Origin: Verrucomicrobiota bacterium
GTDB lineage: Bacteria > Verrucomicrobiota > Verrucomicrobiia > Chthoniobacterales > UBA10450
Assembly: GCA_003219415.1 (NCBI GenBank)
Contig: QHOS01000018.1
Location: 1-64,000, forward strand
DNA: 64,000 nucleotides
Direction of reading: 5' to 3'
Under the pieces are notes generated by a model. That model had not been told where the DNA came from. It did not search any database and was given only the letters and a program-made list of their open reading frames with translations. Every line of letters begins with the position of its first letter. Position 1 is the stretch's first letter. The position numbers were made by a program, and so were the translations under genes. Positions 8,856-61,010 of this stretch are shown here, in pieces.

Positions 8856-9356
8856 ATGAGAACGGCAGTCGCGCTCGGATCCAATCTCGGCGATCGGCTC
8901 GAGAATTTGCGCGCAGCGCGACGACAAATTATCGAGCTTGCTGACGTAAGACCGCCTGTTTTCTCTGCGGGCATCTACGAAACCGAACCGGTAGATTGCG
9001 AGCCGGGAGCGTCAAATTTTTTGAACACAGTCATTGACTTTGATTTTGAAGGCGACCCCATGCAGTTGCTTGAAGAACTTGCTCGAATCGAGGAGTCGTT
9101 AGGCCGCAAGCGCGATCATCCGAAAAATGTCTCCCGTAGGATCGACATCGACCTGCTGTACTGCGGCGATCAGCAGATCGACAATGAACTCCTGCAATTG
9201 CCGCACCCGCGGATGCACTTGAGAAAATTCGTGCTTCAACCGCTCGCCGATATCCGGGGAGACCTGATCTTGCCTAATCAAAGAAAAGCTGTCCGGGAAT
9301 TGCTCCCAAAACCCGACGAATCTGGAGAGGTGGTTCGATTGATGAACGATTGGTAG
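8856..9356 (+). CDS. folK: HPPK, 2-amino-4-hydroxy-6-hydroxymethyldihydropteridine pyrophosphokinase
   Basis: FolK transfers pyrophosphate from ATP to the pterin, giving the substrate that dihydropteroate synthase joins to p-aminobenzoate in folate synthesis. The 166 residues show the family order: ALGSNLGDRLENL at the N-terminus, YETEPV, the LGRKRD loop, and RRIDIDLLYCGD with the two magnesium-binding aspartates, then LPHPRMHLRKFVLQPL. It matters for the CADD homologue at 56.6-57.3 kb, which in Chlamydia supplies p-aminobenzoate. Confidence 0.95.
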   Translation: MRTAVALGSNLGDRLENLRAARRQIIELADVRPPVFSAGIYETEPVDCEPGASNFLNTVIDFDFEGDPMQLLEELARIEESLGRKRDHPKNVSRRIDIDLLYCGDQQIDNELLQLPHPRMHLRKFVLQPLADIRGDLILPNQRKAVRELLPKPDESGEVVRLMNDW

Positions 9357-47934: not shown

Positions 47935-48193
47935 CGGTCACTGTAGTTTACCCTCCCTCGTGCTCTTGCTCATACCCCAACACTTGGCTCTGCGGCAGGA
48001 GAAAGAGTAGGAACGAGCACGCCGACGCACTTCCACAGTCTCCATTAGACGTTGGCGTCCAGCGAACTTTGGTAAAAAAATGCAACTGTCCAAAATTCGT
48101 CCTCCGTCACATTCGTGGCCGCCATGGTTTTTGTTGCAAGGCTCAAGCTGCCTGTGCAATGCTTGTTACCGAGGGCTTACCCTCAGCCTCCGC

Positions 48194-49339
48194 ATGAATT
48201 ACCAGCTTATTCCGAAAGAACTCAGGCCGATTGCAGAAAGGATTGAAGCGCGGGAGCGACTTTCAGAGGCGGACGCTCTCACTCTGTATCGCGTAAATGA
48301 TCTTAATGCCCTTGGAATGATCGCCAACCTTGTGCGCGAACGAAAGAACGGCAACTACGCCACTTACATCCACAATCGCTACATCAATTACTCCAACATT
48401 TGTATCTTATCCTGCCAGTTTTGTGCTTTCGCGGCCAAAAAGCGCGACGCACACGCGTTTGAGTACGCGATCGACGAAATCGTTCGAGTAGTGGGAGATG
48501 CACTCCCCCTTGGAGTTACCGAAGTGCACATGGTAGGCGGACTGCATCCCACACTAAAGAAAGAATGGTATTTGGATCTTTTGCAGAGGCTGCGCGCACT
48601 CGAGCCGAACCTTCACATCAAGGCTTTTACCGCGATCGAGGTGCGGCATTTGGCCCAGCGGATTTTCCGGATGCCAATCCGTGACACACTGGAGACTTTG
48701 CGCGCCGCTGGGCTCGGCTCGATCACAGGGGGTGGCGCAGAGATTTTTGATCCGGCCGTTCGCGACAAAATCTGCCGCGGCAAAGAAACCGCATCTGAAT
48801 GGCTGGACGTTCATCGAACGTGGCACTCAATGGGCGGCCGCAGCACGTGCACCATGCTCTACGGGCATATTGAGACGCATGCTCAGCGGGTAGATCATTT
48901 GCGTCAACTTCGGGAATTGCAGGATGAGACCGGCGGATTCACTGGCTTCGTTCCCTTTGCTTTCGAGCCATCCCAATCCCATGGAATCCTGGCCCAGATC
49001 AAGCGCGCCTCCGCGTTTGAGCAGCTTCGCAATCTCGCGGTGAGCCGCATTTATTTGGATAACATCGATCATCTGACCGCTTATTGGGTCAGCCTTGGTT
49101 TGCCTCTTGCGCAGGTGTCGCTCAGCTACGGCGTGGACGATCTGCATGGCACAATTTTGGAAGAGAAAATCTTCCACATGGCTGGCGCAACTACTCCGCA
49201 GCAGCAGACCGTAGCTGCTCTCGAACATGCCATTCGGGAAGCCGGCCGCGAACCCGTGCAGCGTGACAGTCACTATCGACGTTTGAATGGCGCCGGCCGA
49301 GCGAGACAGCCTAACGAGCCCGAATTAGTCTGCGCGTGA
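48194..49339 (+). CDS. mqnE: Aminodeoxyfutalosine synthase
   Basis: A 381-residue radical SAM enzyme; start at ATG 48194 (MNYQLIPKELRPIAERIEAR). The 4Fe-4S cysteines are C70, C74 and C77 in CILSCQFC. HMVGGLHP, GGGAEIF and TMLYGHIETHAQRVDHL are typical of MqnE. It adds the radical of SAM to carboxyvinyl-oxybenzoate to form aminodeoxyfutalosine on the alternative menaquinone pathway. mqnA follows 94 bases later, so both act in succession (MqnA first). The open frame upstream of the chosen start has no conserved content. Confidence 0.94.
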   Translation: MNYQLIPKELRPIAERIEARERLSEADALTLYRVNDLNALGMIANLVRERKNGNYATYIHNRYINYSNICILSCQFCAFAAKKRDAHAFEYAIDEIVRVVGDALPLGVTEVHMVGGLHPTLKKEWYLDLLQRLRALEPNLHIKAFTAIEVRHLAQRIFRMPIRDTLETLRAAGLGSITGGGAEIFDPAVRDKICRGKETASEWLDVHRTWHSMGGRSTCTMLYGHIETHAQRVDHLRQLRELQDETGGFTGFVPFAFEPSQSHGILAQIKRASAFEQLRNLAVSRIYLDNIDHLTAYWVSLGLPLAQVSLSYGVDDLHGTILEEKIFHMAGATTPQQQTVAALEHAIREAGREPVQRDSHYRRLNGAGRARQPNEPELVCA

Positions 49340-49351
49340 CGGTCAGTACGA

Positions 49352-49436
49352 AGTGAGAGGTGAGACGTGAAAAGTCGGAATGAAGGTTACTGTTAGTCTC
49401 GCTCGTCTCACTTCTTACTAATCACATCTCACGTTG
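49352..49436. repeat. Word repeat GTGAGA/TCTCAC between mqnE and mqnA
   Basis: AGTGAGAGGTGAGACGTGAA at the left faces TCTCGCTCGTCTCACTTCTT and CACATCTCACG at the right: words GTGAGA and GTCTCAC occur several times in both orientations and could form a stem. The right end touches the mqnA start codon. Confidence 0.65.
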
Positions 49437-50246
49437 AAATCGCTCCGCGTCGGTTGCGTAAAATATCTCAACGCCCGCCCGCTCATACACGGCTGGGAAG
49501 GCGACGTGGACTTCGATCACCCGTCAGCGCTCTGCAACAAGCTCACCGCCGGTAAACTTGATGTTGCGCTTGTCTCCAGTTTCGAGTTTTTGCGTAACCC
49601 AATCTACCGGATCGTTGATGACGTTTCCATTTCCTCGAACGGACCGGTTTACAGCGTAATCGTCGCACATCGTGGCGAGATTACGGAGATCAAAGAGATC
49701 GAACTCGATCCAGCATCAGAAACTTCTATCAACCTTTTGCGTTGTTTACTCGCGGATCTCGGATTGAACCCGCGCTTAGTTAGGCGTGTCGCGGAAGCCC
49801 CCCTCATGACGAAGTCAGCCTTGGTCGGTCGCGCACAACTTTTCATCGGTGATCAAGCCATCTACGTCCGACAAAAGTACGCTAACGAATTTTCCTTCTG
49901 GGACCTGGGTGAACAGTGGCGGAAGTTCGTCGGACTTCCGTTTGTTTACGCGCTCTGGCTTATTCGCCCGGAAGTCGCCGATCCAAAAGGAATCGCGAAC
50001 GCGCTGCGCGCCTTGCGCGATGCAAACCTTGCTAATCTCGACAACTTGGTCGCGGAAGTTGTAGGCGGGGTCGCCGACTCCGGCCAACGGAGGGGAGTCG
50101 ATGGTGAATTCCTCTCGCGCTACTACTCCGAACATCTTCGATTCGGGTTCGAGGAAAACGAAAAGGAAGGCCTGCGAATCTTTGCAAATTTGTGCATAAA
50201 GCGCGGTCTGCTTCCAAAGCGCGATCTCGCGTTCCGCGTTGTTTAG
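49434..50246 (+). CDS. mqnA: Chorismate dehydratase
   Basis: 270 residues, TTG start giving MKSLRVGCVKYLNARPLIHG, the conserved MqnA N-terminus. VALVSSFEFLRNP, YSVIVAHRG, LFIGDQAIYV and FVYALWLIRP follow. It removes water from chorismate to make 3-carboxyvinyl-oxybenzoate, the first futalosine-pathway step. Its last 432 bases are also an open frame on the opposite strand, continuing the DUF2939 gene. Confidence 0.94.
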   Translation: MKSLRVGCVKYLNARPLIHGWEGDVDFDHPSALCNKLTAGKLDVALVSSFEFLRNPIYRIVDDVSISSNGPVYSVIVAHRGEITEIKEIELDPASETSINLLRCLLADLGLNPRLVRRVAEAPLMTKSALVGRAQLFIGDQAIYVRQKYANEFSFWDLGEQWRKFVGLPFVYALWLIRPEVADPKGIANALRALRDANLANLDNLVAEVVGGVADSGQRRGVDGEFLSRYYSEHLRFGFEENEKEGLRIFANLCIKRGLLPKRDLAFRVV

Positions 50247-56627: not shown

Positions 56628-57299
56628 TCAGCACGCGATGGCGTGACGCCGGCAAACGCCCGAGAGCATTTCCCAGAGTGCGTCGAGAATGCGGTTTACT
56701 GACGCTTTCACTGATTCGAAATTGCGCTCGTTGACGTAACGGTTCAGCATTTCACGCTCAGCAGTAGAATGTTCTCGATCCGCCTCGATGTGAATCGCGA
56801 AATATTCGTAGTGCTCAGGCTTGGCGAATCCGTAGTGTTTTTTGAGCCCGTCAATCTTCGATTCACAGATGGAGGGAATTTGGCTCTCGTACGCATACAA
56901 TGCGCCCAAACCTTCAGCCGTCGATCCCTGGCCACAAACCGAGCGAAATGTTTCAATCAATTTTTTCGTCTCCGTTTGTTTCTCGGTTCGCGCAAGCTCG
57001 GCATCGTCGATGCCGAGACCATCCGCAAATTTCTTCCAAAGCTCGGGATGATTCGGCGAGCCGGCCTCTTCATCGATCAAATTGCCGAGCAACTGTTTCC
57101 GGGTTGCTTGATCGTCACAGTTCGCGTGCACCGCCGAGAGATACGTCGGAAACGCCGCGACATGATGATAGTACTGTCGCGCATAATCTGTAAGCGCGTC
57201 CTTGCTTAATTCACCGCGCGTCCACGCGAGATAAAACGGATGTTTCAAAAGATGTTTCACCGCGATGTCATTGTCGATTTTGTCGAGATATTGGTTCAT
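56628..57299 (-). CDS. CADD-like non-heme diiron protein (putative p-aminobenzoate synthase)
   Basis: 223 residues of the TENA/PqqC-like helical fold, very similar in pattern to Chlamydia CADD: HPFYLAWTRGELSKDALTDY, QYYHHVAAFPTYLSAVHANC, IDEEAGSPNHPELWKKF, YAYESQIPSICESKI and YFAIHIEADREHS. In Chlamydia CADD is a self-sacrificing enzyme that makes p-aminobenzoate from its own tyrosine using a diiron site and a conserved lysine. The matching Tyr23 (HPFY), the Glu/His metal ligands and the Lys in SKIDGL are present. The product would join the FolK product in folate synthesis. The transfer of function is inference; the family match is strong. ATG start at 57299. Confidence 0.85.
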   Translation of the reverse strand: MNQYLDKIDNDIAVKHLLKHPFYLAWTRGELSKDALTDYARQYYHHVAAFPTYLSAVHANCDDQATRKQLLGNLIDEEAGSPNHPELWKKFADGLGIDDAELARTEKQTETKKLIETFRSVCGQGSTAEGLGALYAYESQIPSICESKIDGLKKHYGFAKPEHYEYFAIHIEADREHSTAEREMLNRYVNERNFESVKASVNRILDALWEMLSGVCRRHAIAC

Positions 57300-57444: not shown

Positions 57445-60400
57445 TCAAACCGATTTCAAAATGTGCTTGATCCCGCGGACGGGGATCACGACCCAGCTGG
57501 GGCGATTGTTCAGTTCGTAACCAATTTCGTAAACAGCTTTGTCGAGCAGGTAGGCTTCGATCATAATTTGGAGATCTTCGCTGTTGTGAGGTATGAAGAT
57601 GGCGCTGCCCGTTGTCTTCAAATAACTCTGTAGAAAGACGCTGCCCATGTGACGATACCAAAGATCGGCCCACCGCTCGAGGAATGGCACATCCTCTTTA
57701 CGCATGGCCGGCTGCCAGAGAGCACTGCAGGCAGCGTATTGGAACGAACGCATCATACCTGCTACATCCCGGAGCGCGGAACGTTTCAGCTTCCGTTCGC
57801 TCAGCGGTCGCGCCGGTTCGCCTTCGAAGTCCAAAATGACGAAGTCTTTTCCGGTGTAAAGCAACTGACCCAGATGGTAATCGCCATGAATCCGAATTTT
57901 CGCGGCATTAGTGCGACGATCGAGCAGCCGTTTTTCACGTGCGAGGATCTCGTGTTCCGCGCTTAGCACTTCTTTTGCTTCATCGCGGAAGGTCGCCGGA
58001 AGGTCGCATAATTTCTTTTCCAAAAGAATAAACGCACGTCGCAGCGACGCCCGCATGTTTTGGTAAACAGAGCGTTGTGCCATCGCGTTGAATGGCTCGG
58101 GCCGGAACGCCGGATCGTCCGGATACGAGGCGAGGGCGAGATGCAGTTCACCAGTGCGTTGCCCGAGCAGCTTCATTTTCTCAGGATAAACGCCACCGAA
58201 CAGCTCATCGAGCAGCGCCCCCGGGGGCGCGATTTCATTCTGAAGATCGGCTTTGCGACCAAGTACCCGCTCGTAATAGCGGCCGACTGCGTCCAGGGTG
58301 AGCGACCAGACATCCCCTTCGTTAGTAACGGCGCTCTGCAGTAAGCACACGACAGTCGGCTCCGCTTTCGGGCGGCGATATTCGATTGCGCCGACAAACG
58401 CCGGCACATTTGGGAACTTGGTGTGTTCTGTGAGAAACCGAGTTATTTCAACATCCGGATTAACGCCATCCTCGATTTTGCGATAGAGTTTCAGAAAGAA
58501 CTTGTTATCAAAGAGCATTGAGGAGTTGCTCTGCTCCGCGCTTAAGACTTGCGAATTCTGTGGGCTAGTGAATTGATCAGCTTCGAAATCCTTGGCAGTA
58601 ATGCCGACCAGTTCGCCAGCGCGAGCCTTTACGATCTCGCGCCTCGCGATCGTATCGAACAACCGCGAGCGGCATTTCACGTCCCAGGTTGCATCAAACA
58701 GAACGTTTTCATCGTTACCTGCGAAACGCGCAATAATGGCGTGCGGCGCGGCTTGCGAAAGAGCGCGCGCGGTTTCACCGGAGGCAATGCTGACCGGAAG
58801 GACATATGTCTCAGTGGGTGCGTCGAGATAGCTGACTTCAACGAGCCAAAGTTGAGCACTATCGGCGTCGTCCGAGATCGAAGGCTGCTCAACGATTTTC
58901 AAACTGCGAAAGGTTCGCGCCTTCGAACCGAACCAGCGGCAGGTTTGGAGGTATCGAGGTAAAATTTCGTGTTCGATTGCGGCGCGTTGACCATTAGTGA
59001 GCAATGTTTCCAGCTCCATTGGTGCATTGATCACTGGCACCGTTTTCTTTCTTGGAGTACGGCGCCCGTCGGTCGGCGCGTGCAGGGCGAACCAGTAGTA
59101 TGCATGCGGTCCAAGGGTGATGACGTAGCGGGATTTTCTAATTGGGCGAAAAAGATTGCGGCTAAAAACTTCCATCGGCACGAACCCAGCGAAGCGGGAA
59201 AGGTCTAATTCCGCTGATTGCGCGAAGCGGGAGAGGTTCACTATCACCAGAACGATCTCATCTTCGTACCGGCGAAGGAAAGCGAGAACCTTCGGGTTGT
59301 CGGGATAGAGAAATTCCAGCGAGCCGCGCGAGAACGCCTTGAAATTTTTCCGCATGGCGATGACCCGTCGCATCCACCACAGCAACGAAGAGAGATTTTT
59401 CTGCTGATTCTCCACGTTGACGGCTTCGTAATGATATTCAGGGTCGATCGTGATCGGAAGATAAAGTTGCTGTGGGTTTGCTCGTGAAAATCCGGCGTTG
59501 CGGTCAGGGCTCCACTGCATCGGTGTGCGGCAACCGTTGCGATCGCCGAGATAGAAATTGTCGCCCATGCCGATCTCATCCCCGTAGTAGATGATCGGGG
59601 TGCCCGGCATCGAGAACAGCAGGGTATTAAGCAGCTCGATTTTGCGACGGCTGTTTGCCAGCAGTGGAGCAAGACGCCGACGGATTCCAAGATTTATACG
59701 AGCGTGGGGATCGGTAGCGTAAACGCGGTACATGTAGTCGCGTTCCTCGTCGGTGACCATTTCCAGGGTCAGCTCGTCATGGTTGCGCAGAAACATCGCC
59801 CACTGACACTGTTCGGGAATCGACGGAGTCTGCTCGAGAATGTCGATGATGGGAAAGCGGTCCTCCATCTGCAACGACATGAACATGCGTGGCATGAGAG
59901 GAAAGTGAAAATTCATGTGCGATTCGTCGCCGTTACCAAAGTAAGCGGCTGCATCTTCCGGCCATTGGTTCGCTTCGGAGAGCAGCATGCGATTTGGAAA
60001 TTTCGCGTCAATGTGGGCACGGAGCTTACGGAGGTATTGATGCGTCTCTGGGAGGTTCTCGCAGCTCGTGTTTTCTCGTTCGTAAAGGTAGGGGATAGCG
60101 TCAAGGCGAAGCCCATCAACGCCCAGTCCGAGCCAAAAATCGCAGACTTTCTCTACGGCATCGTGCACTGCCGGGTTATCAAAGTTCAGGTCTGGCTGAT
60201 GCGAATAAAAGCGATGCCAATAATAGGCTTTTGCGACTGGGTCCCATGCCCAGTTCGATGTTTCGAAGTCTTTAAAAATGATTCGCGAATCCTTGTATTT
60301 TTCCGGGGTATCACTCCACACATAGAAGTCTTTGTAGGCGAGATCGTCGCTGGAGATGCCGGCACCAGCTGCGGCAACAGCGCGCCGCGACTTTTGAAAC

Positions 60401-60756
60401 CATGGGTTTTGATCGGAAGTGTGATTGATGACCAGCTCCGTGATGACGTGCAGATTTCGCTGGTGCGCCGCATCAAGGAATGCGCGGAAATCATCCAACG
60501 TGCCGAAATTTGGATTGACGTCGAAGTAATCGGCAATGTCGTATCCGTCATCTCGCAGCGGCGACGGATAAAAGGGCAGGAGCCAAATGGCGGTGACGCC
60601 GAGTTCCTGAAGATAATCCAGTTTCTCGATTAGTCCGCGAAAGTCACCCATCCCGTCCCCGTCGCTGTCGCAAAACGTTTTGACGTGCGTCTCGTAGATG
60701 ATTGCGTCTTTGTACCAGAACGGATCCACGCTCGTTGGAGTCTCCCCTTGCGCCAT
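57445..60756 (-). CDS. treS: Trehalose synthase-maltokinase fusion
   Basis: 1103 residues; start at the ATG at 60756 (MAQGETPTSVDPFWYKDAII). Residues about 10-560 form a GH13 trehalose synthase: GVTAIWLLPFYPSPLRDDGYD, VITELVINHTSDQ, GLRLDAIPYLYERE (nucleophile Asp), MLLSEANQWPED (general acid Glu), MFLRNHDELTLE. Residues about 600-1100 form a maltokinase of the aminoglycoside-kinase fold: LPRYLQTCRWFGSKAR, HGDYHLGQLL and VILDFEGEPARP. Together they turn trehalose into maltose and then maltose-1-phosphate, the substrate of GlgE for alpha-glucan; glgE is not in the window. Confidence 0.94.
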   Translation of the reverse strand: MAQGETPTSVDPFWYKDAIIYETHVKTFCDSDGDGMGDFRGLIEKLDYLQELGVTAIWLLPFYPSPLRDDGYDIADYFDVNPNFGTLDDFRAFLDAAHQRNLHVITELVINHTSDQNPWFQKSRRAVAAAGAGISSDDLAYKDFYVWSDTPEKYKDSRIIFKDFETSNWAWDPVAKAYYWHRFYSHQPDLNFDNPAVHDAVEKVCDFWLGLGVDGLRLDAIPYLYERENTSCENLPETHQYLRKLRAHIDAKFPNRMLLSEANQWPEDAAAYFGNGDESHMNFHFPLMPRMFMSLQMEDRFPIIDILEQTPSIPEQCQWAMFLRNHDELTLEMVTDEERDYMYRVYATDPHARINLGIRRRLAPLLANSRRKIELLNTLLFSMPGTPIIYYGDEIGMGDNFYLGDRNGCRTPMQWSPDRNAGFSRANPQQLYLPITIDPEYHYEAVNVENQQKNLSSLLWWMRRVIAMRKNFKAFSRGSLEFLYPDNPKVLAFLRRYEDEIVLVIVNLSRFAQSAELDLSRFAGFVPMEVFSRNLFRPIRKSRYVITLGPHAYYWFALHAPTDGRRTPRKKTVPVINAPMELETLLTNGQRAAIEHEILPRYLQTCRWFGSKARTFRSLKIVEQPSISDDADSAQLWLVEVSYLDAPTETYVLPVSIASGETARALSQAAPHAIIARFAGNDENVLFDATWDVKCRSRLFDTIARREIVKARAGELVGITAKDFEADQFTSPQNSQVLSAEQSNSSMLFDNKFFLKLYRKIEDGVNPDVEITRFLTEHTKFPNVPAFVGAIEYRRPKAEPTVVCLLQSAVTNEGDVWSLTLDAVGRYYERVLGRKADLQNEIAPPGALLDELFGGVYPEKMKLLGQRTGELHLALASYPDDPAFRPEPFNAMAQRSVYQNMRASLRRAFILLEKKLCDLPATFRDEAKEVLSAEHEILAREKRLLDRRTNAAKIRIHGDYHLGQLLYTGKDFVILDFEGEPARPLSERKLKRSALRDVAGMMRSFQYAACSALWQPAMRKEDVPFLERWADLWYRHMGSVFLQSYLKTTGSAIFIPHNSEDLQIMIEAYLLDKAVYEIGYELNNRPSWVVIPVRGIKHILKSV

Positions 60757-61010
60757 GCGTTTAATTTTTGACGTATAAGACGCGCAACGCAATCATCCGT
60801 TCGTCAATTGTTCCGCAAGACTTGTGTCTTCTTCCCAGAACAGAAGCGGGCACGTTGCCGTAGCCACTTTCAGAAAAAATGTATGCGTTAATGTACATTG
60901 GCGAGTCTGTCTTGGAAACCGATGGACGAAGTGGTCTGTGCAGCTTAAGAGACCTGGTGGTTAGTTCGCGTGCACTCTGCTGATTGATTATTGCAATTTC
61001 TTAACCTTTC

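Follow-up and report, generated by a model that had tools for sequence, protein, structure and literature searches.

In a draft genome of soil Verrucomicrobiota, we analyzed a stretch of 64,000 nucleotides (hereafter the window) and identified a gene whose product is very probably a p-aminobenzoate (pABA) synthase of the CADD/PabS type that works for a single turnover and would feed folate synthesis after the loss of PabABC. The best reading of the genomes compared here is that this one-turnover enzyme stands in for PabABC throughout the clade.

A predicted CADD-family gene and its active site

The gene is an ORF of 223 amino acids that runs from an ATG start at 57299 to 56628 on the minus strand, the stop codon being within these coordinates. 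The relevant features of the window are:

56628..57299, minus strand: predicted CADD-family self-sacrificing pABA synthase gene (TIGR04305 score, residue alignment to 1RCW and 9pj4, AlphaFold2/Foldseek)
57233-57231, minus strand: Tyr23 codon, predicted source of the pABA ring
56858-56856, minus strand: Lys148 codon, predicted amine donor
56802..56891, minus strand: Tyr137-Tyr166 codons, the ends of the span being the counterparts of CADD Tyr141 and Tyr170 (alignment)
57445..60792, minus strand: trehalose synthase/maltokinase-like gene of 1115 aa, upstream of the CADD gene (likeness judged from the sequence)
8856..9356, plus strand: folK (HPPK; TIGR01498, 110 bits, cut-off 54.1), unlinked to the CADD gene

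The initial annotation had proposed a CADD homologue at this position, which is borne out by the family model and by known structures. The protein is a member of NCBIfam family TIGR04305 (fol_rel_CADD) with 297.7 bits and an E-value of 4.4e-89 (cut-off 200), and phmmer searches against PDB chains retrieved CT610/CADD (1rcw, E-value 5.8e-56) and a 4-aminobenzoate synthase (9pj4, E-value 9.2e-58). Over the aligned regions, identity is 44% with CADD and 49% with the 9pj4 enzyme.

The alignment also agrees with the earlier proposal that Tyr23, the metal ligands and the lysine nitrogen donor are kept. Tyr23 corresponds to the sacrificed tyrosine (Tyr27 of CADD; Tyr25 of NePabS, the synthase of Nitrosomonas europaea), and Lys148 occupies the amine-donor position (CADD Lys152, NePabS Lys159). 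All six dimetal ligands, three His and three carboxylates, are present as Glu77, His84, Glu138, His170, Asp174 and His177, which match, in the same order, CADD Glu81, His88, Glu142, His174, Asp178 and His181. The second-shell aromatics Tyr39, Tyr43 and Trp88 are the equivalents of CADD Tyr43, Tyr47 and Trp92; Tyr39 further matches NePabS Tyr41, and Tyr43 and Trp88 match NePabS Tyr45 and Trp99, these being essential or important aromatics. In addition, Tyr137 and Tyr166 align with CADD Tyr141 and Tyr170, a pair of the Mn/Fe type. At every catalytic and ligand position compared, the window protein has the same residue as CADD.

An AlphaFold2 model of the protein, built from a 26-row alignment, reached a pLDDT of 95.7 and a pTM of 0.92. 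In Foldseek the CADD chains 1rcw and 8va9 were the top PDB matches of this model, with TM scores of 0.92-0.97 and an rmsd of 1.1-1.2 A; PqqC and BesC ranked far lower, the lead of CADD in E-value being some eight orders of magnitude. This ranking bears on whether the protein might be a different heme-oxygenase-like dimetal enzyme, similar to PqqC or BesC and acting on an external substrate, whose likeness to CADD is one of fold only. Both belong to the same superfamily, and the superfamily models PF14518 and PF03070 match the window protein, as do the BesC (NF042919) and PqqC (TIGR02111) models more weakly. The latter two reach only 65.9 and 61.2 bits where 500 and 240 are required, against 298 bits for the CADD model; moreover, the Tyr and Lys that are sacrificed do not vary, and the genome has a separate PqqC-like gene adjoining a pqqB-like gene. 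A fold-only resemblance is therefore highly improbable, and we continue with the assignment as a pABA synthase. Together with the absence of pabB and of a dedicated pabC described below, family score, residues and predicted fold support the predicted function of a CADD-type pABA synthase outside Chlamydiae, as had been suggested.

The source genome, a draft of 3.6 Mb in 253 contigs with 96.5% completeness, falls within "Candidatus Udaeobacter", a clade of soil Verrucomicrobiota that NCBI places in Chthoniobacterales and that is described in the literature as free-living. The nearest named loci are from a soil Verrucomicrobia MAG (L101, 96% protein identity) and Candidatus Udaeobacter sp. AEW3 (L147, 84%); the window protein, L101, L102, L103 and L147 form one supported group in the tree. 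Clade proteins are 64-96% identical to the window protein, and the catalytic residues are invariant across them.

In most clade loci (L101-L138, L147), the order of the trehalose synthase-like gene followed by the CADD gene is kept, and a Deg-type protease gene and recG are often next, on the opposite strand. This conserved order indicates vertical inheritance rather than a folate operon, and linkage of CADD to folate genes was not found in the clade loci. Among the loci with scanned neighbours, such linkage was seen only in the Chlamydia-like L170, where CADD adjoins folE-like and folate gamma-glutamate ligase-like genes. As initially noted, folK is indeed in the window, but it is about 47 kb away in another gene cluster and is no evidence of linkage. 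A promoter/terminator scan gave matches near chance level.

Several relatives showed unusual features. A homologue in L130 (5001-5798; the same gene in L098) carries an in-frame insertion of 129 bp (43 aa) after position 100, which is rich in inverted repeats and looks like a palindromic element placed in frame within a coding gene. One MAG (G378) has two intact CADD genes on contigs C129 and C334 (L109, L118), which reflect either a mixture of bins or a duplication, the latter being plausible for an enzyme with a single turnover. A divergent homologue (L085, G422:C18), possibly a degraded or repurposed copy, has Ala at the position of CADD His181, the final one of the His ligands, and Phe at position 141.

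Folate and chorismate genes in the source genome and its order

FolP is encoded elsewhere in the source genome, outside the window, and the presence of FolP and FolK implies that this organism needs pABA. We examined the genome for pabABC, a check proposed with the initial annotation, and neither pabB nor a dedicated pabC was found. The only gene matched by the pabB model (on C31) scored 281 bits, under the cut-off of 328, and was rejected as PabB: it encodes a TrpE-TrpD fusion, follows trpG and passes the cut-offs of both the trpE and the trpD model. A PF00425 search of the genome revealed no chorismate-binding enzyme besides this fusion. Both class IV aminotransferases fell below the pabC cut-offs and scored best as the branched-chain type. 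The trpG_papA model fits L003, and L008, among the four remaining PF00117 (GATase) matches, is a weak one whose best model is gamma-Glu-GABA hydrolase (52 bits). Judged from its gene content, the genome needs pABA yet is without the standard route.

A missing pabB might be explained by a gap in a single draft genome of 253 contigs and 96.5% completeness, but not in 67. Among the 197 genomes of the order, CADD scored above the cut-off in 48 of the 67 genomes of the window's family and in none of the 130 elsewhere. Two or more chorismate-binding genes (PF00425) were present in 0/67 genomes of the family versus 104/130 outside it; within the family, 47 genomes have one such gene and 20 have none. 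The family's TrpE copies, where fetched, sit beside trpG and/or trpD, and in the tree of chorismate enzymes the PabB branch consists of genomes without CADD only. FolP-family genes were found in 60 of 61 genomes of the family. Moreover, in 38 CADD carriers from other groups, the chorismate enzymes, identified from family scans of selected proteins or from their place in the tree, were TrpE, isochorismate synthase or salicylate synthase, and PabB was not seen among them.

A competing explanation is that pABA or folate is taken up from soil, or that pABA arises through promiscuous TrpE/TrpG together with an IlvE-type aminotransferase acting as lyase, CADD being a minor contributor or a relic. 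TrpG-type subunits are common to both pathways in some bacteria, in keeping with the trpG_papA fit of L003; class IV aminotransferases are promiscuous, and a scavenging life with salvage routes has been reported for Udaeobacter (PMC7343977). The product of TrpE, however, is ortho- and not para-substituted, and the clade copies score as TrpE and lie beside trpG/trpD. A 100% complete genome of the family (G013) with no chorismate-binding gene retains CADD and FolP-family genes, and catalytic residues that stay invariant across a clade of 64-96% identity would be unexpected for a relic. Such a soil or TrpE-based supply is thus improbable, and replacement of PabABC by the self-sacrificing enzyme is preferred.

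The association of CADD with absence of PabB in the order goes back to a small number of ancestral events, perhaps a single one, and not to 67 separate cases; the pattern is a strong description but offers little independent replication. In another family of the order (f60; G244, G251, G266, G275 and others), genomes mostly have a single chorismate-binding gene and are without CADD; the second gene can thus be lost where CADD is not present, which limits the inference. Other Verrucomicrobiota matches to TIGR04305 (27-69 bits) were rejected as CADD, being far under the cut-off of 200, and three pattern matches in viral contigs included no relative. Within the window's family, one genus (g138; L079-L084 from G404, G417, G396, G322, G358 and G420) has a much diverged CADD (41% identity in L082) that retains every key residue and sits on a long branch of its own, possibly a displacement by a second CADD lineage.

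Neither DHFR (PF00186) nor ThyX (PF02511) was found in the source genome by whole-genome profile search, which leaves the folate pathway incompletely explained; tetrahydrofolate reductase has also been reported missing from a published Udaeobacter MAG (PMC7343977). A second TENA/PQQC-family match in the genome (on C76) was rejected as a second CADD because it is PqqC-like and follows a pqqB-like gene. Two adjacent ORFs in the window (48080-50246, plus strand) look, by eye only, like mqnE and mqnA, genes of the menaquinone pathway through futalosine, which fits the absence of an isochorismate synthase.

Proposed reaction and metal choice

Homology, residues, predicted fold and genome context were established directly for the window protein, and we infer its chemistry, stoichiometry, metal and physiological role. 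By homology to CADD and NePabS, O2 would be activated at the dimetal site formed by Glu77, His84, Glu138, His170, Asp174 and His177, and an oxidising equivalent would pass to Tyr23 via aromatic residues, for which Tyr137, Tyr166, Tyr43 and Trp88 are among the candidates. The C-alpha/C-beta bond of Tyr23 would then be cleaved, leaving Gly in the protein, and the freed ring would obtain both carboxylate oxygens from O2. Lys148 would donate the amine and become aminoadipate. Each 223-residue protein could thus yield at most one pABA, which FolP would couple to the pterin produced by FolK.

NePabS has Phe at both metal-proximal positions and prefers Fe/Fe; replacement of both by Tyr shifts it to Mn/Fe, and the F148Y variant accepts either metal pair (PMC11965152). 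Since the window protein carries Tyr137 and Tyr166 as in CADD, we predict from its sequence that it prefers Mn/Fe over the Fe/Fe of NePabS. Use of Fe/Fe, or of either metal pair, by a genuine pABA synthase is an appreciable possibility here, though a less probable one. The Mn choice of CADD is seemingly not structurally encoded, its ligands being identical to those of diiron enzymes (PMC13108848), and the Tyr/Phe rule is based on two enzymes and their variants; against this stand the shift of NePabS toward Mn/Fe when both Phe are changed to Tyr and the presence of Tyr at both metal-proximal positions in the window protein.

Among 87 aligned sequences, the metal-proximal pair is Tyr/Tyr in 78, Phe/Phe in five, Tyr/Phe in three and His/Tyr in one. 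The Tyr/Tyr set includes free-living soil lineages, and Phe/Phe is the Nitrosomonas and Nitrosospira type. In a tree inferred without the two pair columns, a single change suffices for each Phe state, and the eight Phe-bearing sequences lie on one side of a branch with a support of 98.9. On this unrooted tree of the best 80 of 572 relatives in the genome collection, the Phe pair of the Fe/Fe type has a single origin, around Nitrosomonadaceae. The simplest reading of these sequences is a history of Tyr/Tyr to Tyr/Phe to Phe/Phe, in which Tyr170 would have changed to Phe first and Tyr141 later; the surviving Tyr/Phe relatives, among them L171 (Zixibacteria RBG-1), would represent the intermediate state and should accept either metal, like F148Y. 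The sole His seen at the position of CADD Tyr141 occurs in Candidatus Udaeobacter AEW3 (L147, and also L036) and may alter the metal choice.

We tentatively suggest, as a proposal about as likely to fail as to hold and perhaps slightly more so, that Mn/Fe is usual and probably ancestral in the self-sacrificing pABA synthases of bacteria living freely in soil, among them Verrucomicrobiota, Acidobacteriota and Armatimonadota, with the Fe/Fe state of Nitrosomonadaceae as a derived exception. It has been suggested that Mn/Fe in Chlamydia reflects iron restriction by the host (PMC11965152). A Tyr/Tyr norm in free-living soil phyla (78/87) argues against Mn/Fe as an adaptation to iron restriction by a host, and if Mn/Fe is ancestral in soil bacteria, that idea would be wrong. 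Neither this norm nor the single origin of the Phe pair was found described in the literature searched.

Relation to known pABA synthases

The initial annotation had held that a free-living relative would show the self-sacrificing route not to be confined to parasites; published work has already provided such a case. CADD is an established self-sacrificing enzyme, and so is NePabS (NE1434) of the free-living Nitrosomonas europaea: an E. coli strain deleted for pabABC is rescued by it, and its sacrifice of Tyr25 and Lys159 was shown biochemically. Putative synthases have also been stated to occur in diverse environmental bacteria (PMC11965152). A free-living self-sacrificing pABA synthase is thus already known, as is the enzyme type from Chlamydia and Nitrosomonas. 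The distribution of the cofactor switch and the clade-wide replacement of PabB are useful additions, and earlier mention of verrucomicrobial homologues is possible.

If our interpretation is right, a highly abundant and globally common free-living soil lineage makes a folate precursor with a single-use enzyme, and the self-sacrificing route is not peculiar to parasites and not uncommon, having replaced PabABC across a whole family. Pathway reconstructions based on pabABC only would miscall Udaeobacter as a pABA auxotroph. These proteins would also offer a direct test of the choice between Mn/Fe and Fe/Fe in heme-oxygenase-like dimetal enzymes: a 2026 review lists the Chlamydia enzyme as the sole case of Mn/Fe known (PMC13108848), but dozens are predicted from sequence.

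Among known systems, PqqC and BesC have a superfamily fold in common with the window protein, which scores far under their family cut-offs. CADD (CT610) of Chlamydia trachomatis (PDB 1RCW, 8VA9, 8VAG) shares with it the family, the fold, the sacrificial Tyr and Lys, the six ligands and both metal-proximal tyrosines (141 and 170). The window protein differs from CADD in being only 44% identical, in belonging to a host that is free-living in soil and in being encoded beside a trehalose synthase-like gene instead of folate genes; there is no reason to expect for it the apoptosis-related role reported for CADD. NePabS has a free-living host and an identical set of Tyr, Lys and ligands. The 9pj4 structure is of the NePabS type, at 49% identity, and has a loop of roughly nine residues that the window protein is without. 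NePabS combines Phe/Phe with Fe/Fe, in contrast to the Tyr/Tyr pair of the window protein.
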